Source: Fluviicola chungangensis
Lineage (GTDB): Bacteria > Bacteroidota > Bacteroidia > Flavobacteriales_D > Crocinitomicaceae
Direction: 5' to 3'
DNA length: 64,000 nt
NCBI RefSeq assembly: GCF_007558725.1
Contig: NZ_VLPL01000007.1
Coordinates: 62,001-126,000, forward strand
The position numbers were made by a program, and so were the translations under genes. Every line of letters starts with the position of its first letter. Position 1 is the first letter of the stretch. Positions 46,574 through 62,834 of the stretch are shown in pieces. The notes beneath the pieces were generated by a model. It was not told where the DNA came from. It did no database searches and was given only the letters and a program-made list of their open reading frames with translations.

Positions 46574-47155
46574 TTATGAATTTCCTTTCAATGGTTTCAC
46601 TGATTTGATCGATTTGGCCATTAAATCAATAATTATTTTCTCAAATCCATCGTCGCGGCTTCTGAATACATACGTAATTCCGTCAATTACTTTTTGTCCG
46701 TATACATGATAGGTTTTGTGTTCTACTCCTACTGACTTGGAAGCACCTTTCTTTCCATCTACTTTCAGCTCACGTTCGTATAAAATGAAATCAGGTTCAT
46801 CCACCAGGTATTTGATCTTGTAAAAATTCAGACCTGCCAGGCGCTTTTTCTCAGATGAAACCATTTCACGATCAGAGCCCCAATCGTCAATGATCATATG
46901 AAAATTCGGGCCCACCATTAATTCCCATTTGAAATCATCTTCCACGTGAATAATCTCAGGTTGAGTCGAGGCTCCGATATTCGCAGTTTCATCCGGTAAC
47001 ATGATCATAACCGGAATATCGTACGGCTTCATGGAAAAACCCTGGAATTCGTATAATTCCTCGTCAGTCAATTCTTTACCCTCCTCAGAATCACCGCAGC
47101 GAACTGCCAGCATGGAAACGGTCAAAAGCAATAAAAAGATTGAAAATTTTTTCAT
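46574..47155 (-). CDS. Lipoprotein of unknown function
   Basis: 193 residues. The start MKKFSIFLLLLTVSMLAVRC ends at a cysteine, consistent with a lipoprotein signal, although the -1 residue Arg is unusual. The mature part is mixed alpha/beta, with a VMIMLPDETA segment and a YHVYGQKVIDGITYVFRSRDDG segment. No family recognised. It ends at a shared terminator and is divergent from the MerR regulator gene. Confidence 0.75.
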   Translation of the reverse strand: MKKFSIFLLLLTVSMLAVRCGDSEEGKELTDEELYEFQGFSMKPYDIPVMIMLPDETANIGASTQPEIIHVEDDFKWELMVGPNFHMIIDDWGSDREMVSSEKKRLAGLNFYKIKYLVDEPDFILYERELKVDGKKGASKSVGVEHKTYHVYGQKVIDGITYVFRSRDDGFEKIIIDLMAKSIKSVKPLKGNS

Positions 47156-47310: not shown

Positions 47311-48183
47311 ATGGCAGCTTACAAAATTCGGGACTTGGAAATTCTGACTGGAATTAAGGCGCATACGATCCGTATGTGGGAAAAAAGATATGGCTTGCTG
47401 AAACCCCAAAGAACGACCACCCAAATAAGGACTTATTCAAACAATGACTTGCTGCTGCTTTTAAACGTTTCCCTGCTGTATAAAAAAGGCATTAAAATTT
47501 CGCGGATTGCCGATATGAGCAACGAGCAAATTTATCAGGCTTCCAGGTCTCTTCAGCATTCGGAAGACACAGATACAGCCATAGAACAATTCATCGTTTC
47601 CGTATTGCAGCTTGATGAACAATTATTTCAGAAAACATTTCAGGAATTGACCTATAAATCAGATCTGTCCGTCATTTTTTCCGAACACATCATTCCCTTT
47701 CTCAATCGCATTGGTGTGATGTGGCTCGTAGGAACAATCAATCCGGCGCAAGAGCATTTTATTTCTAACCTCATCCGGCAAAAAATCATTGCAGCGATTG
47801 ACCAACTGCCTGTTCCCGATTCGAAACAGGTGAAAATAATCCTTTATCTACCTGAACACGAGTGGCACGAAATCAGTTTGCTCGTTTATCATTATCACCT
47901 CAGGTCCAAAGGACTGAACAGCATTTATCTGGGCCAGGCCCTTCCTTATGACGCGCTCATTAAAGCTGTCACAATCCTGGAACCGGAATGCCTTGTTTCC
48001 AGCTGGCTGACAGCGATAGAACCTCAAAAAATCAGGGATCATTTCCATCAGCTGGAAACTGATCTGGGTCCTGTGACACTCATTGCCGGAGGATATCAAA
48101 TCGATCAACTGGAATCTTTCCTTTCCAAAAAAATAAAACGGATTCGTACTCTAAGCGACCTGGAGCTGTTCATCTCGCCCTAA
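47311..48183 (+). CDS. MerR-family cobalamin-binding regulator, CarH/LitR type
   Basis: 290 residues. MerR helix-turn-helix at about 3-70 (YKIRDLEILTGIKAHTIRMWEKRYGLL). The helical bundle (about 90-165) contains Trp138-x9-Glu148-His149, the W-x9-EH signature of adenosylcobalamin photoreceptors of the CarH/LitR group, where the Trp and His contact the upper face of B12. The Rossmann-type B12 domain at 172-290 has Glu184-x-His186 in the ExHxxG position, the lower-ligand His, but the final Gly is Ser189. In known members, the dark AdoCbl form represses carotenoid genes and light releases it. Here it lies directly before crtI-crtB-idi. Light response is inferred, not shown. Confidence 0.87.
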   Translation: MAAYKIRDLEILTGIKAHTIRMWEKRYGLLKPQRTTTQIRTYSNNDLLLLLNVSLLYKKGIKISRIADMSNEQIYQASRSLQHSEDTDTAIEQFIVSVLQLDEQLFQKTFQELTYKSDLSVIFSEHIIPFLNRIGVMWLVGTINPAQEHFISNLIRQKIIAAIDQLPVPDSKQVKIILYLPEHEWHEISLLVYHYHLRSKGLNSIYLGQALPYDALIKAVTILEPECLVSSWLTAIEPQKIRDHFHQLETDLGPVTLIAGGYQIDQLESFLSKKIKRIRTLSDLELFISP

Positions 48184-48212
48184 TTCAATATCTTCTTCGA
48201 ACGATTTATTCA

Positions 48213-48248
48213 TTTTGTTTAATCTTTTTTTATATTTGTTAAACAAAA
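48213..48248 (+). promoter_or_regulatory. crtI promoter with inverted-repeat operator
   Basis: TTTTGTTTAA (48213-48222) and TTAAACAAAA (48239-48248) form a perfect 10-bp inverted repeat with a 16-nt spacer. TATATTTG, a -7 box, occupies 48231-48238, just before the right arm. The nearest TTTG (48214-48217) is only 13 nt upstream, shorter than the usual spacing of about 19, and lies in the left arm. A regulator bound here would cover the promoter; the MerR protein encoded just upstream is the likely candidate. Confidence 0.6.
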
Positions 48249-48337
48249 TAGAGTTATGATCCTGATCCGATTAAAAGTGTAAATTCATCATCGGTAGGAT
48301 TCTGGTCACTATTTGATAATCTAATTTGAACGGCAAC

Positions 48338-49819
48338 ATGTCAGGAAAAAAAATTGCACTAATCGGTTCGGGTATCTCAAGTCTGTCCTGTGCCTCTTTT
48401 CTGGCAAAGGAAGGTCACGAGGTTGTTATTCTGGAACAGAATGACAGCATCGGCGGAAGAGCGCGCCAGTTCCAAACGGACAATGGATTCACCTTCGACA
48501 TGGGGCCAAGCTGGTATTGGATGCCGGATATTTTTGAGAACTTTTATCAGCAATTCGGTTACACCACTTCGGATTTCTATGAATTGGTCCGGCTGGATCC
48601 GTCCTACCAGGTAATTTGGGATAAAAACGACATTGATCCGATTCCCGCATCCCTGAAGGAACTGGAGGAATATTTTGAAAAACTGGAAATCGGAAGCAGT
48701 ATCAAACTCAGGCAATTTTTAGCTGATGCTGAAAAAAAATACAGGATCGGGATGAAAGACCTGGTTTACAAACCCAGTTTGAAACTCACCGAATTTGCAG
48801 ATACACGTGTTCTCACAGGGTTATTTAAAATGCATTTGTTTACTTCATTTGCCTCCTTCATCCGCAACTATTTTACACACCCGAAAATTATTTCCCTGCT
48901 TGAATTCCCGATTTTATTTCTGGGAGCCACACCAAAAGACACCCCTGCACTTTATTCTTTAATGAACTATGCAGACATCCAATTGGGAACTTGGTACCCG
49001 ATGGGTGGAATGTTTGAATTTGTCAAAGCTTTTGAAACAATTGCATTGGAACAGGGCGCCACTTTTTCATTAAACACGAGCGTTTTGGGATTCAACACCT
49101 CCAAAGGAAAAATTACCTCCATCAACACATCGAAAGGCGAAATCGCATGTGATTATGTTATTTCCGGTGCAGATTACCGCCACACAGAACAACTATTGAA
49201 AAACAACGCCAATTATTCTTCATCTTATTGGGAAAAACGCATCATGGCCCCTTCCTGCCTGATTTTTTATGTCGGTTTGGATTGTAAAGTACCGAACTTA
49301 GAACACCACAACCTATTCTTTGATGAAGATTTTGACACACATGCATCAGAAATTTACAAAAACCCGAAATGGCCGCAAAAGCCGCTTTTTTATGCCAGTT
49401 GTCCTTCAAAGACAGATCCCTCCGTGGCACCGGAAACCGGTGAGAATCTATTCCTGTTAATTCCAATTGCCCCGGACTTGCAAGATTCTGAGGAAAAGCG
49501 GGAAATCTATTTCGAGGTACTCAAAAAACGCCTCAATGAAAAAATTGGTTTTGACATCAATCCGCATATCATTTACAAACGTAGTTATTGCATCTCCGAT
49601 TTTGTGAATGATTACAATGCATTCAAAGGAAACGCTTACGGATTAGCAAATACATTAAGACAAACTGCTTTACTTAAACCCCGCATTAAGAACAAGCATT
49701 TATCAAACCTGTTTTATACAGGGCAATTGACGGTACCGGGCCCAGGAATCCCACCTTCAATTGTTTCGGGGGAAGTGGTCGCAAAACATGTGATCCGGCA
49801 AATAAAAAAATTGAACTAA
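48338..49819 (+). CDS. crtI: Phytoene desaturase
   Basis: 493 residues from ATG 48338 (an in-frame TTG at 48326 is less likely). The N-terminal FAD motif is LIGSGISSLSCASFLAKEGHEV, where the third glycine is Ser, followed by the EQNDSIGGRARQF block. The C-terminal signature FYTGQLTVPGPGIPPSIVSGEVVA is complete. It desaturates phytoene to lycopene. The promoter lies about 100 nt upstream, leaving a fairly long leader. It is 10 nt from crtB. Confidence 0.95.
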   Translation: MSGKKIALIGSGISSLSCASFLAKEGHEVVILEQNDSIGGRARQFQTDNGFTFDMGPSWYWMPDIFENFYQQFGYTTSDFYELVRLDPSYQVIWDKNDIDPIPASLKELEEYFEKLEIGSSIKLRQFLADAEKKYRIGMKDLVYKPSLKLTEFADTRVLTGLFKMHLFTSFASFIRNYFTHPKIISLLEFPILFLGATPKDTPALYSLMNYADIQLGTWYPMGGMFEFVKAFETIALEQGATFSLNTSVLGFNTSKGKITSINTSKGEIACDYVISGADYRHTEQLLKNNANYSSSYWEKRIMAPSCLIFYVGLDCKVPNLEHHNLFFDEDFDTHASEIYKNPKWPQKPLFYASCPSKTDPSVAPETGENLFLLIPIAPDLQDSEEKREIYFEVLKKRLNEKIGFDINPHIIYKRSYCISDFVNDYNAFKGNAYGLANTLRQTALLKPRIKNKHLSNLFYTGQLTVPGPGIPPSIVSGEVVAKHVIRQIKKLN

Positions 49820-49829
49820 AGGCCCTGCT

Positions 49830-50666
49830 ATGAAACAACTATTCGACACATTATCTCTTGAAATAAGTGCCATGACCACCAAAAGGTACAGCACTTCTTT
49901 CTCTCTTGGAATTCATTTCCTGAGCAAAGACCTCCAGGCACCTATCCATGCGATTTACGGATTTGTGCGCTTTGCAGACGAAATTGTAGACACATTTCAT
50001 GAGTATGAAAAGGAAGAATTACTCCGGGAATTCAAACACGAAACCTACAAAGCGCTTGAACGCGGAATTTCCCTGAACCCGATACTGAACAGTTTCCAAT
50101 GGGCTGTTAATACGTATAAAATTGATCCGGAACTGATCGAAATTTTTCTGCAATCAATGGAAATGGACCTGGAAACCACCCAATACGAACGCAACGTTTA
50201 CGAACAGTATATCCTGGGTTCTGCAGAAGTCGTTGGATTGATGTGCCTGAAAGTTTTTGTAAGAGGCGACCATCAAATGTATTTAAAACTGAAAGATTCT
50301 GCCATGAAACTGGGATCCGCTTTCCAAAAAATCAATTTCTTGCGCGACCTGAATGCAGATTATTTCCAATTGGGAAGAACGTATTTTCCTGAAATGAATT
50401 TCGATTTATTTGACCAATCCATGAAAACAAAAATTGAGCACGAGATCGAACTGGATTTTAAAGCTGGGTACGAAGGAATTAAAAAACTTCCCAAAGATGC
50501 GCGATTCGGGGTTTACATGGCTTATCGCTACTACATCAAATTGTTCCATAAGATCCAAAAAACGGATGCACACATTATTTTGGGACAACGTATCCGGATT
50601 CCTGACAATAAAAAGGTTCGTTTGCTATTTACTTCTTATCTTCGTCACAACTTGAATTTATTGTAG
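49830..50666 (+). CDS. crtB: Phytoene synthase
   Basis: 278 residues. The first aspartate-rich motif lies in FVRFADEIVDTFHE and the second in NFLRDLNADYFQLGRTYFPE, both typical of phytoene synthase. It condenses two GGPP into phytoene. The stop is TAG at 50664-50666; the next in-frame codon is the TTG start of idi, with no intervening base. Confidence 0.95.
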   Translation: MKQLFDTLSLEISAMTTKRYSTSFSLGIHFLSKDLQAPIHAIYGFVRFADEIVDTFHEYEKEELLREFKHETYKALERGISLNPILNSFQWAVNTYKIDPELIEIFLQSMEMDLETTQYERNVYEQYILGSAEVVGLMCLKVFVRGDHQMYLKLKDSAMKLGSAFQKINFLRDLNADYFQLGRTYFPEMNFDLFDQSMKTKIEHEIELDFKAGYEGIKKLPKDARFGVYMAYRYYIKLFHKIQKTDAHIILGQRIRIPDNKKVRLLFTSYLRHNLNLL

Positions 50667-51188
50667 TTGGAAACAGTTGTATTGGTAAATGACCGGGATG
50701 AGGCGATCGGGACCATGGAGAAAATGGAAGCCCATCAAAAAGGAGTATTGCATCGCGCGTTCTCTGTTCTCCTATATCAAAACGGAAAAATCCTGCTTCA
50801 GCAACGCAGCCTGAACAAATACCATTCAAGCGGACTGTGGACCAATACCTGCTGTTCGCATCCCAGACCGGATGAAACGCTTGAAAATGCCGGAAACAGA
50901 AGGTTAAAGGAAGAAATGGGAATTGATTGTGCGGTTACGCCCCATTTTCATTTTATTTATAAGGCGCAATTGGACGGAGGTTTAGTGGAACACGAACTGG
51001 ATTATGTCTTGTTCGGTTCGTATGACGGTGCTATTTATCCGAATCCGGAGGAAGTAATGGATTATAAATGGATTAACTGGAATGAATTGGTAGAAGACAT
51101 TACCGAACATCCCGAACGCTATACCGCATGGCTTCAAATTCTGGTAGAAGATTACAAACAAAACATAGAAGAAATCCTTTTCTCATGA
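50667..51188 (+). CDS. idi: Isopentenyl-diphosphate delta-isomerase (type 1)
   Basis: 173 residues, a Nudix-fold type 1 enzyme. The catalytic blocks are LHRAFSVLLY, WTNTCCSHPRP (Cys and His) and RRLKEEMGI. It interconverts IPP and DMAPP for prenyl chains. The start is TTG at 50667, chosen because the family begins just before VVLV-D/N-D; the next ATG is 17 codons in and would cut the fold. It is in the same frame as crtB with a single TAG between them. It overlaps the QueD-like gene by 4 nt (ATGA). Confidence 0.93.
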   Translation: METVVLVNDRDEAIGTMEKMEAHQKGVLHRAFSVLLYQNGKILLQQRSLNKYHSSGLWTNTCCSHPRPDETLENAGNRRLKEEMGIDCAVTPHFHFIYKAQLDGGLVEHELDYVLFGSYDGAIYPNPEEVMDYKWINWNELVEDITEHPERYTAWLQILVEDYKQNIEEILFS

Positions 51189-51589
51189 AAATCTTTCGTG
51201 TCGAACAATTTAATGCAGCACATCGTTTGTTTAACCCCAAATGGGATGATGAAACAAACAACCGTATTTTCGGAAAATGTAACAACCCCAATTTCCATGG
51301 ACACAACTACAAACTGGAAGTAGAGCTGGAAGGACTGATCAATCCGGATACAGGTTACGTCATGGACATGAAACAGCTTTCCGACATCATGAAACTGGAA
51401 ATTCTGGAGCGCTTCGATCACCGGAATTTAAATTTGGATTGTCCGGAATTTGCCCATTTAATTCCTTCTGCTGAAAATATTGCACTGGTTTGCTGGAACA
51501 TTCTTCGCGACAAACTTCCTTCTGAATTAATCTTGAAGGTCCGCTTATGGGAAACTCCTAGAAATGGGGTTGAATATGATGGAAAGTAA
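51185..51589 (+). CDS. 6-pyruvoyl-tetrahydropterin synthase/QueD-like enzyme
   Basis: 134 residues from ATG 51185, which overlaps the idi stop. Zinc histidines lie in FNAAHRL and HGHNY, and the catalytic-site cysteine in GKCNNPNFHGHNY; ENIALVCW is present near residue 98. The family makes 6-carboxytetrahydropterin for queuosine (QueD) or pyruvoyl-pterin. Its place between idi and photolyase in a light-type cluster suggests a pterin for a light-harvesting cofactor as an alternative. The two roles cannot be separated from sequence. Confidence 0.9.
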   Translation: MKIFRVEQFNAAHRLFNPKWDDETNNRIFGKCNNPNFHGHNYKLEVELEGLINPDTGYVMDMKQLSDIMKLEILERFDHRNLNLDCPEFAHLIPSAENIALVCWNILRDKLPSELILKVRLWETPRNGVEYDGK

Positions 51590-51727
51590 ATACTAAAGGA
51601 AAAAACAGTTTTTTAACACACACTAATGATCGCACCAAGGTTTATCCATATCAAAAACGAACATTTTCCCTCAAAACAATACTTTGTAAACCAATTTTTC
51701 GTCTTCAAAAGCAAAGCTTTTTCTTCT

Positions 51728-51735
51728 TATTTTTG
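51728..51735 (+). promoter_or_regulatory. -7 box for the small membrane protein gene at 51754
   Basis: TATTTTTG matches TAnnTTTG, 19 nt before the ATG. Confidence 0.45.
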
Positions 51736-51753
51736 TCAGACACAGTATAAATC

Positions 51754-52074
51754 ATGAGAGCTCTTTCGGCAATAGGTTTTGTAATCAGCGTTATTGGCTT
51801 GCTGTTGGTTTGTTACAACCAATTCGCGATCATCCCGTTCCTGACAGATTTGAACAGTAATGCGGACATCAAAGACAATGAATTCACCCAGGCATTGCGA
51901 TTCAATTATGAAAACCAATTGTTCTTCTTGAGTATGCTCAGCATCATTATCGGTGTCTTTTCTGTTCTGTTCTGCTCCATTGTTTACCTTAAAAAGCGGA
52001 CCCGAATGACTTTAATCGGAACCATTTTGGGTGTTTTTGTCGCGGTAATGGGAATTATACATTCCTGGTATTAA
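51754..52074 (+). CDS. Three-helix membrane protein of unknown function
   Basis: 106 residues: hydrophobic segments at about 5-28, 56-77 and 84-103, with an extracellular loop of polar residues (DLNSNADIKDNEFTQ). No family recognised. It lies inside the light/carotenoid island between the QueD-like and photolyase genes and has its own -7 box. Whether it belongs to the system is unknown. Confidence 0.7.
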   Translation: MRALSAIGFVISVIGLLLVCYNQFAIIPFLTDLNSNADIKDNEFTQALRFNYENQLFFLSMLSIIIGVFSVLFCSIVYLKKRTRMTLIGTILGVFVAVMGIIHSWY

Positions 52075-52106
52075 ACAAATTCAAATTGTTGAAATGGTTC
52101 AAAAGT

Positions 52107-52130
52107 TTAAACGATAAATCAATCGTTTAA
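52107..52130 (+). promoter_or_regulatory. Inverted repeat upstream of the photolyase gene
   Basis: TTAAACGAT (52107-52115) and ATCGTTTAA (52122-52130) form a perfect 9-bp inverted repeat with a 6-nt spacer. The outer TTAAAC half is shared with the crtI operator repeat. Confidence 0.5.
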
Positions 52131-52176
52131 TTCAAATTTGAACTCTGCGCCGATGCTAAAGCTTTAGCGCAAGCAT

Positions 52177-52210
52177 TTTGAACTCTTTGAACCCTTTTAA
52201 CTCTTTGAAA
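52177..52210 (+). repeat. Short tandem repeat before the photolyase start
   Basis: Four degenerate copies of TTTGAACTC with about 9-bp period (near 52177, 52186, 52195 and 52204) end 8 nt before the ATG. A further copy is at 52137-52145. Confidence 0.5.
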
Positions 52211-52218
52211 GAAAATCC

Positions 52219-53544
52219 ATGAAAAATTTGACCTTATTCTGGCACCGAAGAGATTTGAGAATTCACGACAATGCCGGACTTTTCAAAGCCTTGAAACAAG
52301 GAAAAAATGTTCAGCCCGTCTTTATTTTCGATACAAACATCTTAAATAAGCTTCCGAAAAACGACCAGCGCGTTTTATTCATTTACCAAACAATCAAAGA
52401 ATTAAGCGCTTCTTACAACAAATACGGATCTTCTTTATGGGTATTTCATGGAAACCCGACACAGCTTATTCCCGAACTGGTGAAACGGCACGGTGTGGAA
52501 AAAGTCTTTTGCAACAGGGATTATGAACCTGCAGCCATTCAGCGCGACAAGTTTATCCATGAAGCACTTCAAAACCTGAACTGCAGCTTTTCGGGTTCAA
52601 AGGATCAGGTTATTTTTGAAAAGGATGAGGTTGTAAAACCGGATGGAAATCCCTACCATGTATTCACACCTTATATGAGACGATGGAAGGAAAAACTGAC
52701 TGACTTTTACTTAAAAACTTATCCGGTAGAAAACTATATTTCCAACCTGAACAAAGGAACCGAACTTTCGATACCCGATCTGGAAGCGTTCGGTTTCAGC
52801 GACATTCAAACACAGGCTTTCCCCCCTCTTCGAATCCCGAAGAGCATTATCCGGGACTACCACAACACCCGCGACATTCCTTCTCTTGATGGAACTTCCC
52901 GCCTAAGCGTTCACCTGCGGTTTGGAACCATTTCTATCCGCGAACTGGCGAAAACCGCCCGGGAAACCAATGAAAAATACTTTAACGAGCTGATTTGGAG
53001 AGATTTTTATCAAATGATCCTGTTTTGGTATCCGAAGAGTATGAATCATGCGTTCAAAGCGGAGTACGATCGTATCGAATGGGAATTTGACGAAGTACAA
53101 TTCCTGGCATGGTGCGAAGGAAGAACAGGTTATCCTTTGGTTGACGCCGGAATGCGTGAACTAAATGAAACCGGCCATATGCACAACCGAATCCGGATGG
53201 TTGTTGCGAGTTTTTTGTGTAAACACCTATTGCATGACTGGCGCTTGGGTGAGCGTTATTTCGCAGAGAAATTACTGGATTTTGATTTGGCAAGTAATGT
53301 TGGCGGATGGCAATGGGCTGCAGGATCTGGTGTAGACGCGGCACCTTATTTTCGTATTTTCAATCCGACCAGTCAGCAGGAAAAATTCGATCCGGAATTT
53401 GAATACATCAAAAAATGGGTACCTGAATTCGGAACAGCTGATTACCCAAAACCGATAGTAGAACACAAATGGGCGCGCGAACGAGTTTTGGAACGGTATA
53501 AAAAGGCACTCAATACTAATTCTTTCGGGATTTTGAAAAAGTAA
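52219..53544 (+). CDS. phrB: Cryptochrome/DNA photolyase, class I type
   Basis: 441 residues. The N-terminal antenna-binding Rossmann domain starts LTLFWHRRDLRIHDNAGL. The C-terminal FAD domain has LSVHLRFGTISIREL, NELIWRDFYQMILFWYP, GYPLVDAGMRELNETGHMHNRIRM and DLASNVGGWQWAAGSG. It should repair UV pyrimidine dimers with blue light. The blocks fit a class I CPD photolyase more than a cryptochrome, but this is not certain. The pterin-enzyme gene nearby might supply an antenna, by inference. It stands at the end of the island and is convergent with the next gene. Confidence 0.93.
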   Translation: MKNLTLFWHRRDLRIHDNAGLFKALKQGKNVQPVFIFDTNILNKLPKNDQRVLFIYQTIKELSASYNKYGSSLWVFHGNPTQLIPELVKRHGVEKVFCNRDYEPAAIQRDKFIHEALQNLNCSFSGSKDQVIFEKDEVVKPDGNPYHVFTPYMRRWKEKLTDFYLKTYPVENYISNLNKGTELSIPDLEAFGFSDIQTQAFPPLRIPKSIIRDYHNTRDIPSLDGTSRLSVHLRFGTISIRELAKTARETNEKYFNELIWRDFYQMILFWYPKSMNHAFKAEYDRIEWEFDEVQFLAWCEGRTGYPLVDAGMRELNETGHMHNRIRMVVASFLCKHLLHDWRLGERYFAEKLLDFDLASNVGGWQWAAGSGVDAAPYFRIFNPTSQQEKFDPEFEYIKKWVPEFGTADYPKPIVEHKWARERVLERYKKALNTNSFGILKK

Positions 53545-61958: not shown

Positions 61959-62834
61959 ATGAAAGATCTCAAATCTTTACAAGCCCTAATTGCACTCATG
62001 GATGATCCGGATGAGCAAGTTTACGCGCATGTAAGAGATCGTTTGCTGGAGATCGGACCTGATGCTGTTCAATTACTGGAATCCTCCTGGGAAGAAAAAG
62101 ATTACGGTTTGCTCTTTCAATCGCGGATTGAAACCCTGATCCACGAAATTCAATTCGAAGAATGCAAGCGCCAGCTGATTTCCTGGTATCGCAGTTCCAC
62201 CAAAGATTTATTGAAAGGTGCTATCATTGTTGCAAAATACCAATATCCGGGTTTAGACGAAAAACACATCTACGAGTTCATTGAACGCGTTCGCAGGGAT
62301 TGCTGGCTGGAGTTAAATCCGAATATGACGGCTTTTGAGTCAATTCGTATCATTAACAAGGTACTTTTCGGTCAGTACGGTTTTTCCGGGAACTCCAAAA
62401 ATTACAATTCACCGCTAAATTCCTTCCTGAATACGGTCATTGAAACCAAGAAGGGAAATCCGCTGAGCCTGAGTATCCTTTACAGCGTCATTGCGCAGGA
62501 ATTAAAACTCCCGATCTACGGAGTAAACCTTCCGAACCATTTCATCCTGGCTTATATGGATAACAACGGGGTGAACCAGTTTATTTCGAACGGGAACGAA
62601 TACGGGGTTTTGTTCTACATCAATGCCTTTTCCAAAGGGAGTATGCTTCAGAAGGACGATATTGTACAATTCCTGACGAGTATTCAGGTGGCACCGCAGG
62701 CAAGCCATTTTCAACCGTGTTCCAATTCAGATATCATTCGCCGCATGTTAACCAACCTGATCTCATCCTTCCAGCAGGTAGGAAACCTGGAGAAAGTAAA
62801 TGAACTGATTGAATTACGCAGTTTACTCGACTGA
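61959..62834 (+). CDS. SirB1/transglutaminase-like family protein
   Basis: 291 residues. A short HEAT-like N-terminus (about 1-60; DDPDEQVYAHVRDRLLEIG) precedes the SirB1-type transglutaminase-like domain: LNSFLNTVIETKKGNPLSLSILYSVIAQELKLPIYGVNLPNHF, given here in pieces (LNTVIETKKGNPLSLS, then LPIYGVNLPNHFILAY). The catalytic Cys of true transglutaminases is not at the expected spot, as in other SirB1 proteins. Function unknown. Confidence 0.87.
   Translation: MKDLKSLQALIALMDDPDEQVYAHVRDRLLEIGPDAVQLLESSWEEKDYGLLFQSRIETLIHEIQFEECKRQLISWYRSSTKDLLKGAIIVAKYQYPGLDEKHIYEFIERVRRDCWLELNPNMTAFESIRIINKVLFGQYGFSGNSKNYNSPLNSFLNTVIETKKGNPLSLSILYSVIAQELKLPIYGVNLPNHFILAYMDNNGVNQFISNGNEYGVLFYINAFSKGSMLQKDDIVQFLTSIQVAPQASHFQPCSNSDIIRRMLTNLISSFQQVGNLEKVNELIELRSLLD

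Follow-up and report, generated by a model that had tools for sequence, protein, structure and literature searches.

A CarH-type regulator, an inverted-repeat candidate operator and a pterin gene in a carotenoid gene cluster of Fluviicola chungangensis

Control of gene expression by light through vitamin B12 has been worked out in Thermus, Bacillus and myxobacteria. In Streptomyces, the gene for the regulator LitR reportedly adjoins the gene for an extracytoplasmic function (ECF) sigma factor, LitS. The operators of CarH from Thermus thermophilus (TtCarH) and of the other known cases are tandem 11-bp direct repeats (PMC8156234). In Pseudomonas putida and P. mendocina, class II LitR has a light-oxygen-voltage (LOV) photoreceptor as partner and controls a photolyase together with the pterin genes folE, folM and folX (PMC9758184). 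Here, we describe a comparable locus from Fluviicola chungangensis, a Bacteroidota species of the family Crocinitomicaceae (Flavobacteriales), found in a window of 64,000 nucleotides (positions 62,001 to 126,000 of contig NZ_VLPL01000007.1, assembly GCF_007558725.1; contig C17 of genome G000 in our numbering). Seven genes on one strand (window positions 47311-53544) encode a CarH-type regulator, a phytoene desaturase (crtI), a phytoene synthase (crtB), an isopentenyl-diphosphate isomerase (idi), a 6-pyruvoyl-tetrahydropterin synthase (PTPS), a small membrane protein (MP106) and a photolyase (phr). We consider it likely that this is a CarH-controlled photoprotection operon, in which CarH bound to an inverted repeat governs crtI-crtB-idi-PTPS until light releases it, an ancestral sigma gene has been lost, and MP106 and phr probably either stand apart or are reached by read-through.

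The preliminary description, made from the DNA alone, had called the product of the first gene (carH, 47311..48183, + strand, 290 aa) a CarH/LitR-type B12 regulator, and its domains, motifs, predicted fold and B12 residues bear this out. It consists of a MerR DNA-binding domain, a four-helix bundle and a B12-type Rossmann domain (Pfam MerR_1 and B12-binding_2, with the MerR-type domain PF13411 detected). Domain order and fold are those of TtCarH: the full-length structures 5c8d and 5c8e were the best matches to the AlphaFold2 model (mean predicted local distance difference test score, pLDDT, of 90.8), the B12 domain aligned with template modelling scores of up to 0.86, and in the sequence comparison TtCarH also ranked among the top two solved structures (5c8d, 1.7e-20; 3whp, 1.5e-20). 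The Wx9EH motif (W138-x9-E148-H149) is intact in all 33 Bacteroidota CarH proteins compared. The RxWERRY-like recognition-helix motif of CarH/LitR (PMC9304148) reads RMWEKRY here, and its R, W, E, R and Y are invariant among the 33. The B12 motif D/ExHx2G/P-x41-SxT/V-x22-27-GG is represented by E184, H186, S231 and G260-G261 with spacers of 41 and 26, and with two conservative departures (S189 for G/P and L233 for T/V); its GG is not universal among the 33 proteins. As the protein scored 96.1 bits against a cut-off of 400 for the NCBIfam CarH equivalog NF052513, we call it CarH-type rather than a member of that equivalog.

One residue sets these proteins apart from TtCarH. While W131, E141, H142 and H177 of the Thermus protein (numbering from PMC10442372) correspond to W138, E148, H149 and H186, the His after the Trp, H132, is Leu139 in the window and is His in none of the 33 Bacteroidota proteins. 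In Thermus, H132 takes over the cobalt in the light, and without it most of the protein stays tetrameric after light (PMC10442372). A His at this place is found in many CarH proteins, not all (PMC9304148). Bacteroidota CarH would offer a test of how such a protein functions in the absence of the His that TtCarH needs for full break-up of the tetramer.

Between carH and crtI lies an operator-like dyad, TGTTTAA-N16-TTAAACA (48216..48245, extended arms 48212-48249, no strand assigned), the sole exact copy in the window's genome. Instead of the tandem 11-bp direct repeats of the known CarH operators, a feature of those cases rather than a criterion of the family, it has two inverted arms separated by 16 bp. 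Its arms share TnnACA with the published repeat nAnnTnnACAn, of which it forms the core (PMC8156234). Across 181 loci (2,148,314 bases, including a few duplicate records), a spacing of 16 accounted for 80 occurrences of exact arms and a spacing of 17 for six, and no other spacing between 8 and 26 had more than one; reversed-letter controls gave at most one. Nearly all of the 86 listed sites precede a sigma gene, crtI, PTPS, carH, a fasciclin-domain (FAS1) gene or crtB. The nearest gene had no assigned family in four loci (L094, L132, L157 and L158), in two of which, L157 and L158, PTPS starts 30-31 bp from the dyad.

The dyad follows carH through the genomes of relatives. Genome-wide, 79 relatives held 101 exact sites against 6 control sites, and ten genomes searched singly held 31 against none. 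It was present in 50 of the 62 relatives with carH and in 2 of the 17 without (p 3e-7); among genomes at least 90% complete, these counts were 47/57 and 0/11, and in the window's genus 10/10 and 0/4. A candidate -7 promoter element, TATATTTG (48231..48238, + strand), lies inside the window's dyad and may be compared with the Bacteroidota consensus TAnnTTTG. We rejected such an element as a general feature, as TAnnTTTG stands at that place in only 8 of 79 dyads. No RNA family scored above its gathering score in the window. Dyads are often paired: before a sigma gene or PTPS the two are 34-35 bp apart, and at carH loci the distance is 44 bp (L044, L049, L135, L141, L143, L150, L178 and L185; L227-L239), and such pairs may be bound by two dimers or a tetramer.

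In relatives, an ECF sigma gene stands between carH and crtI, and in 41 loci it lies just before crtI, from a 16 bp overlap to a 27 bp gap. These relatives thus resemble Streptomyces, with its LitR gene next to the sigma gene, although they belong to another phylum and the window's lineage is without the sigma gene. Orthologues of it (62-100% identity) were found in 4 of 14 genomes of the genus, the best match in the window's genome being a 34% paralogue. L039, where it precedes the sigma gene, has a dyad promoter nearly identical to the one that precedes crtI in the window and in four sister genomes. This comparison of sequences is most simply explained if the lineage deleted the sigma gene but kept its dyad promoter, so that a two-step cascade became direct control. 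At another locus (L040 of G003, at about 4.2-5.0 kb in PTPS orientation), an unrelated open reading frame (ORF) of 277 aa replaces carH before crtI, and the dyad and sigma gene are gone too.

The pterin gene had been placed in the light regulon by the preliminary description, and this is supported by 17 loci in which the same dyad precedes a PTPS(-folE) operon that lies away from the crt cluster (16 of 80 named loci, mainly from Cyclobacteriaceae, and L075). There, the dyad lies 3-57 bp before PTPS with no crt gene alongside, and PTPS is mostly followed by folE and often by a short-chain dehydrogenase/reductase (SDR) gene. All 36 named genomes that were searched contain carH. At 30 carH loci, which leave out four further PTPS-dyad genomes, the exact dyad was present in 12/12 PTPS-dyad genomes versus 7/18 others. 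Because the dyad occurs both before PTPS outside the crt cluster and at carH loci, more than gene neighbourhood speaks for the pterin gene as a regulon member, and the window's PTPS probably belongs to the CarH light regulon. A PTPS tree of 146 rows and 138 columns, with rough bootstrap values, places the window's protein in a 52-row clade (97/91) within a 126-row clade (90/100, under the starring rule) that includes the dyad-bearing PTPS and excludes a folE-linked second paralogue; the dyad-bearing rows do not form one resolved clade.

Pseudomonas already provides examples of pterin genes within a LitR light regulon (PMC9758184). In contrast to the class II LitR systems, the regulator in the window keeps its B12 residues, and its pterin gene is a PTPS beside carotenoid genes. 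Within the open-access literature searched, what appears to be new is PTPS as the pterin gene, the dyad, and a regulator of the B12 type; neither this dyad nor a pairing of CarH with PTPS was described there. If the dyad is read by CarH, the question arises why Pseudomonas and Bacteroidota, which are far apart, put the synthesis of unconjugated pterins under a light regulator of the LitR/CarH type.

We propose the following sequence of events. In the dark, CarH with adenosylcobalamin would sit on the putative operator at 48216-48245 and block the promoter of crtI-crtB-idi-PTPS. In the light, breakage of the cobalt-carbon bond would release CarH, and the synthesis of carotenoids and tetrahydropterin would rise together. 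PTPS would convert dihydroneopterin triphosphate, supplied by folE elsewhere in the genome, to 6-pyruvoyl-tetrahydropterin. Homology suggests that this product would go into a biopterin-like reduced pterin rather than into queuosine. Judging by the relatives, the ancestral operon would have had the ECF sigma gene as its first gene, and after its loss the CarH promoter of the sigma gene would drive crtI directly.

All seven ORFs of the preliminary description were confirmed at their positions, and those after carH are likewise on the + strand. The crtI-type phytoene desaturase (CrtID, 48338..49819; NCBIfam NF058655, 701.4 bits, cut-off 640) was taken to start at ATG 48338, where the ORF list has TTG 48326. 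It is followed by crtB, of the phytoene synthase type (49830..50666; Pfam SQS_PSY), whose protein is under all listed NCBIfam cut-offs, and by a type I idi (50667..51188; NF002995, 169 bits, cut-off 127; TIGR02150, 125.3, cut-off 105.8). PTPS (51185..51589, 134 aa; PF01242, 120 bits, cut-off 22.4) starts at ATG 51185 with a 4 bp overlap with the idi stop. MP106 (51754..52074, 106 aa) is an ORF with zero Pfam or NCBIfam matches and with relatives seen only within the genus. The product of phr (52219..53544) has both photolyase Pfam domains, the photolyase and the FAD-binding domain, and is nearest to class I enzymes; it too is under all listed NCBIfam cut-offs. Divergent to carH is a lipoprotein-like gene without family match (46574-47155). 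Its relatives stand divergent to the same PTPS type in crt-free loci (L053, L057, L058, L059, L068, L069 and L074), which look as if the intervening crt genes had been deleted.

The comparison of gene order suggested in the preliminary description was run on 51 loci with window-type PTPS (at least 53% identity, plus context), and proximity of PTPS to idi and to a photolyase gene recurs among them. With the window included, idi lies less than 100 bp from PTPS in 35 of the 51 loci, or in 34 if a stricter rule is applied, while 33 have a photolyase within 4.5 kb, on the same strand in 32 of these; many of the loci are kin, so the counts are not independent. The clustering of PTPS with idi and photolyase exceeds chance.

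Several observations weigh against CarH as the reader of the dyad. The exact dyad is missing from 12 of the 62 carH genomes, and two of the 17 carH-free genomes have it (assemblies 59% and 82% complete). With up to two mismatches, the window's genome has 13 sites versus 18 in the control, and with up to three it has no more than the shuffles; as mismatched sites show no excess, we place weight on exact sites only. Related genomes are not independent, and some dyads precede genes without an evident link to light, including secreted proteins (L275, L282 and L287), an ABC (ATP-binding cassette) transporter (L280) and the gene in L278. Finally, known CarH operators are direct repeats (PMC8156234), and this mismatch in design, like the 12 genomes, would suit a different regulator reading the dyad. 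We nevertheless find another reader improbable: within the genus the dyad is lost together with carH, many loci have it next to carH or ahead of it, its arms hold the published TnnACA core, and it persists where the ECF sigma gene is gone, so that the sigma factor is not its reader. One CarH-regulated unit that includes MP106 and the photolyase is possible, though we lean somewhat against it for the window's genome. All genes share a strand, the gap between PTPS and phr is 3-29 bp in several relatives, and MP106 and phr stay paired in genus members without this PTPS (L094-L096). Against this, gaps of 165 bp before MP106 and 144 bp before phr contain no CarH-type dyad, and four genus members have, by eye, inverted repeats between MP106 and phr that could end transcription. 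The window DNA lends no support to CarH control of MP106, which had earlier been placed in the light regulon, or of phr, read-through being a possible route; the two genes probably either form a unit of their own or depend on such read-through.

The use of the pterin product is the other matter on which readings diverge. The nearest solved structures to the window's PTPS are 6-pyruvoyl tetrahydropterin synthases (6.7e-35), the closest being 1b66 and 3i2b, which we take to be the animal enzymes, and the C-x5-HGH motif and D-H pair are kept in the alignment. Unlike these, it stands in a bacterial operon and its activity is predicted. It missed the NCBIfam PTPS subfamily TIGR00039 (82.9 of 125.5). 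By its sequence it is animal-type and not QueD, and 6-pyruvoyl-tetrahydropterin would be its product by homology. A role as the queuosine-pathway QueD, to which the shared Pfam family and a weak QueD-model match of 64.3 bits might point, is very unlikely: the cut-off of that model (TIGR03367) is 89.25, solved QueD chains match at only about 1e-7, and QueC (PF06508) had 0 matches in the genome, while 12 of 14 controls were positive in that search, which did not extend to queE, queF or tgt. The queuosine role, which the preliminary description had also questioned, was rejected on the lack of QueC. Besides this PTPS gene the genome has two more, making three, and both of these adjoin folE genes. 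Supply of tetrahydrobiopterin to phenylalanine hydroxylase was tried and rejected as well. The window's genome has one such gene (G000:C14:50035), yet PF00351 is absent in 31 of the 51 genomes with this PTPS and present in 14 without it, and a second PTPS stands beside folE in the window's genome, which leaves this role with a slim chance. Only a little less doubtful is the suggestion that the pterin made by PTPS serves the neighbouring photolyase as an antenna cofactor. It draws on the 33 of 51 loci with a nearby photolyase, seven of them without crtB, on the order PTPS-folE-SDR-PHR in L178, and in L189 with a flavin reductase too, and on A105 and A106 in the window's photolyase at the positions of the methenyltetrahydrofolate contacts of the E. 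coli enzyme (presumably N108 and E109), which would allow another antenna. However, class I photolyase occurs in 47/51 genomes with this PTPS versus 24/28 without (p 0.44), class I photolyase is missing from four genomes that have this PTPS (G006, G015, G032 and G033, the last 59% complete), and antenna-site motifs, at what we take to be the site residues, do not tell 46 linked photolyases from 32 unlinked ones. As neither the presence table nor the site residues gave support, we did not retain the antenna role put forward earlier.

Minor observations concern the same genes. The third PTPS lies with a second folE at G000:C3:1-3000 (L003, L084), where its neighbours are an FNR-like reductase, a DoxX-like gene and, in divergent orientation, an ECF sigma gene. 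This locus has no dyad within two mismatches; G008 (L082) shows the same gene order. Tandem PTPS pairs precede folE in L165, L177, L179, L188, L191, L195, L199, L201, L202 and L212, mostly in Chitinophagaceae-type genomes and often with a photolyase nearby. The SDR of PTPS-folE-SDR operons was considered as sepiapterin reductase, but this name is absent from the best 60 of 640 solved-structure matches, and we therefore keep to the general term SDR. The near-perfect inverted repeats between MP106 and phr were seen in the sister genomes L034, L035, L036 and L037 and are possibly terminators. An inverted repeat before phr in the window (~52107-52133) was rejected as a second operator, as neither its arms nor its spacing match those of the dyad and, by eye, the sisters in the genus lack it.

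Bacteroidota are abundant in sunlit waters, and the wider set of dyads suggests what light might control there. We give even odds to an own Bacteroidota branch of B12 light control, with a CarH that lacks the light-state His, the MerR-like inverted repeat TGTTTAA-N16-TTAAACA and a phylum-wide regulon of carotenoids, PTPS-folE-SDR, photolyase/cryptochrome, isoprenoid supply, fasciclins and, in at least two genomes, rhodopsin. If the dyad is the Bacteroidota CarH operator, light regulons, including the control of rhodopsin, could be read from genomes. Further exact dyads precede genes for HMG-CoA reductase (L279), glutathione peroxidase (L281) and aldehyde dehydrogenase (L284), as well as a DUF2805 gene followed by a split photolyase-like gene (L276). 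Two microbial rhodopsin genes (PF01036) have an exact dyad about 80-115 bp upstream (L285 2001-2863 in G082; L286 1173-2030 in G068), and the gene after the rhodopsin in L285 is, by eye, a lycopene cyclase. Large fasciclin-domain proteins also repeatedly carry the dyad (L066 10477, L070 12484, L109 2630, L277 and L283), one of them with a type IX secretion tail.

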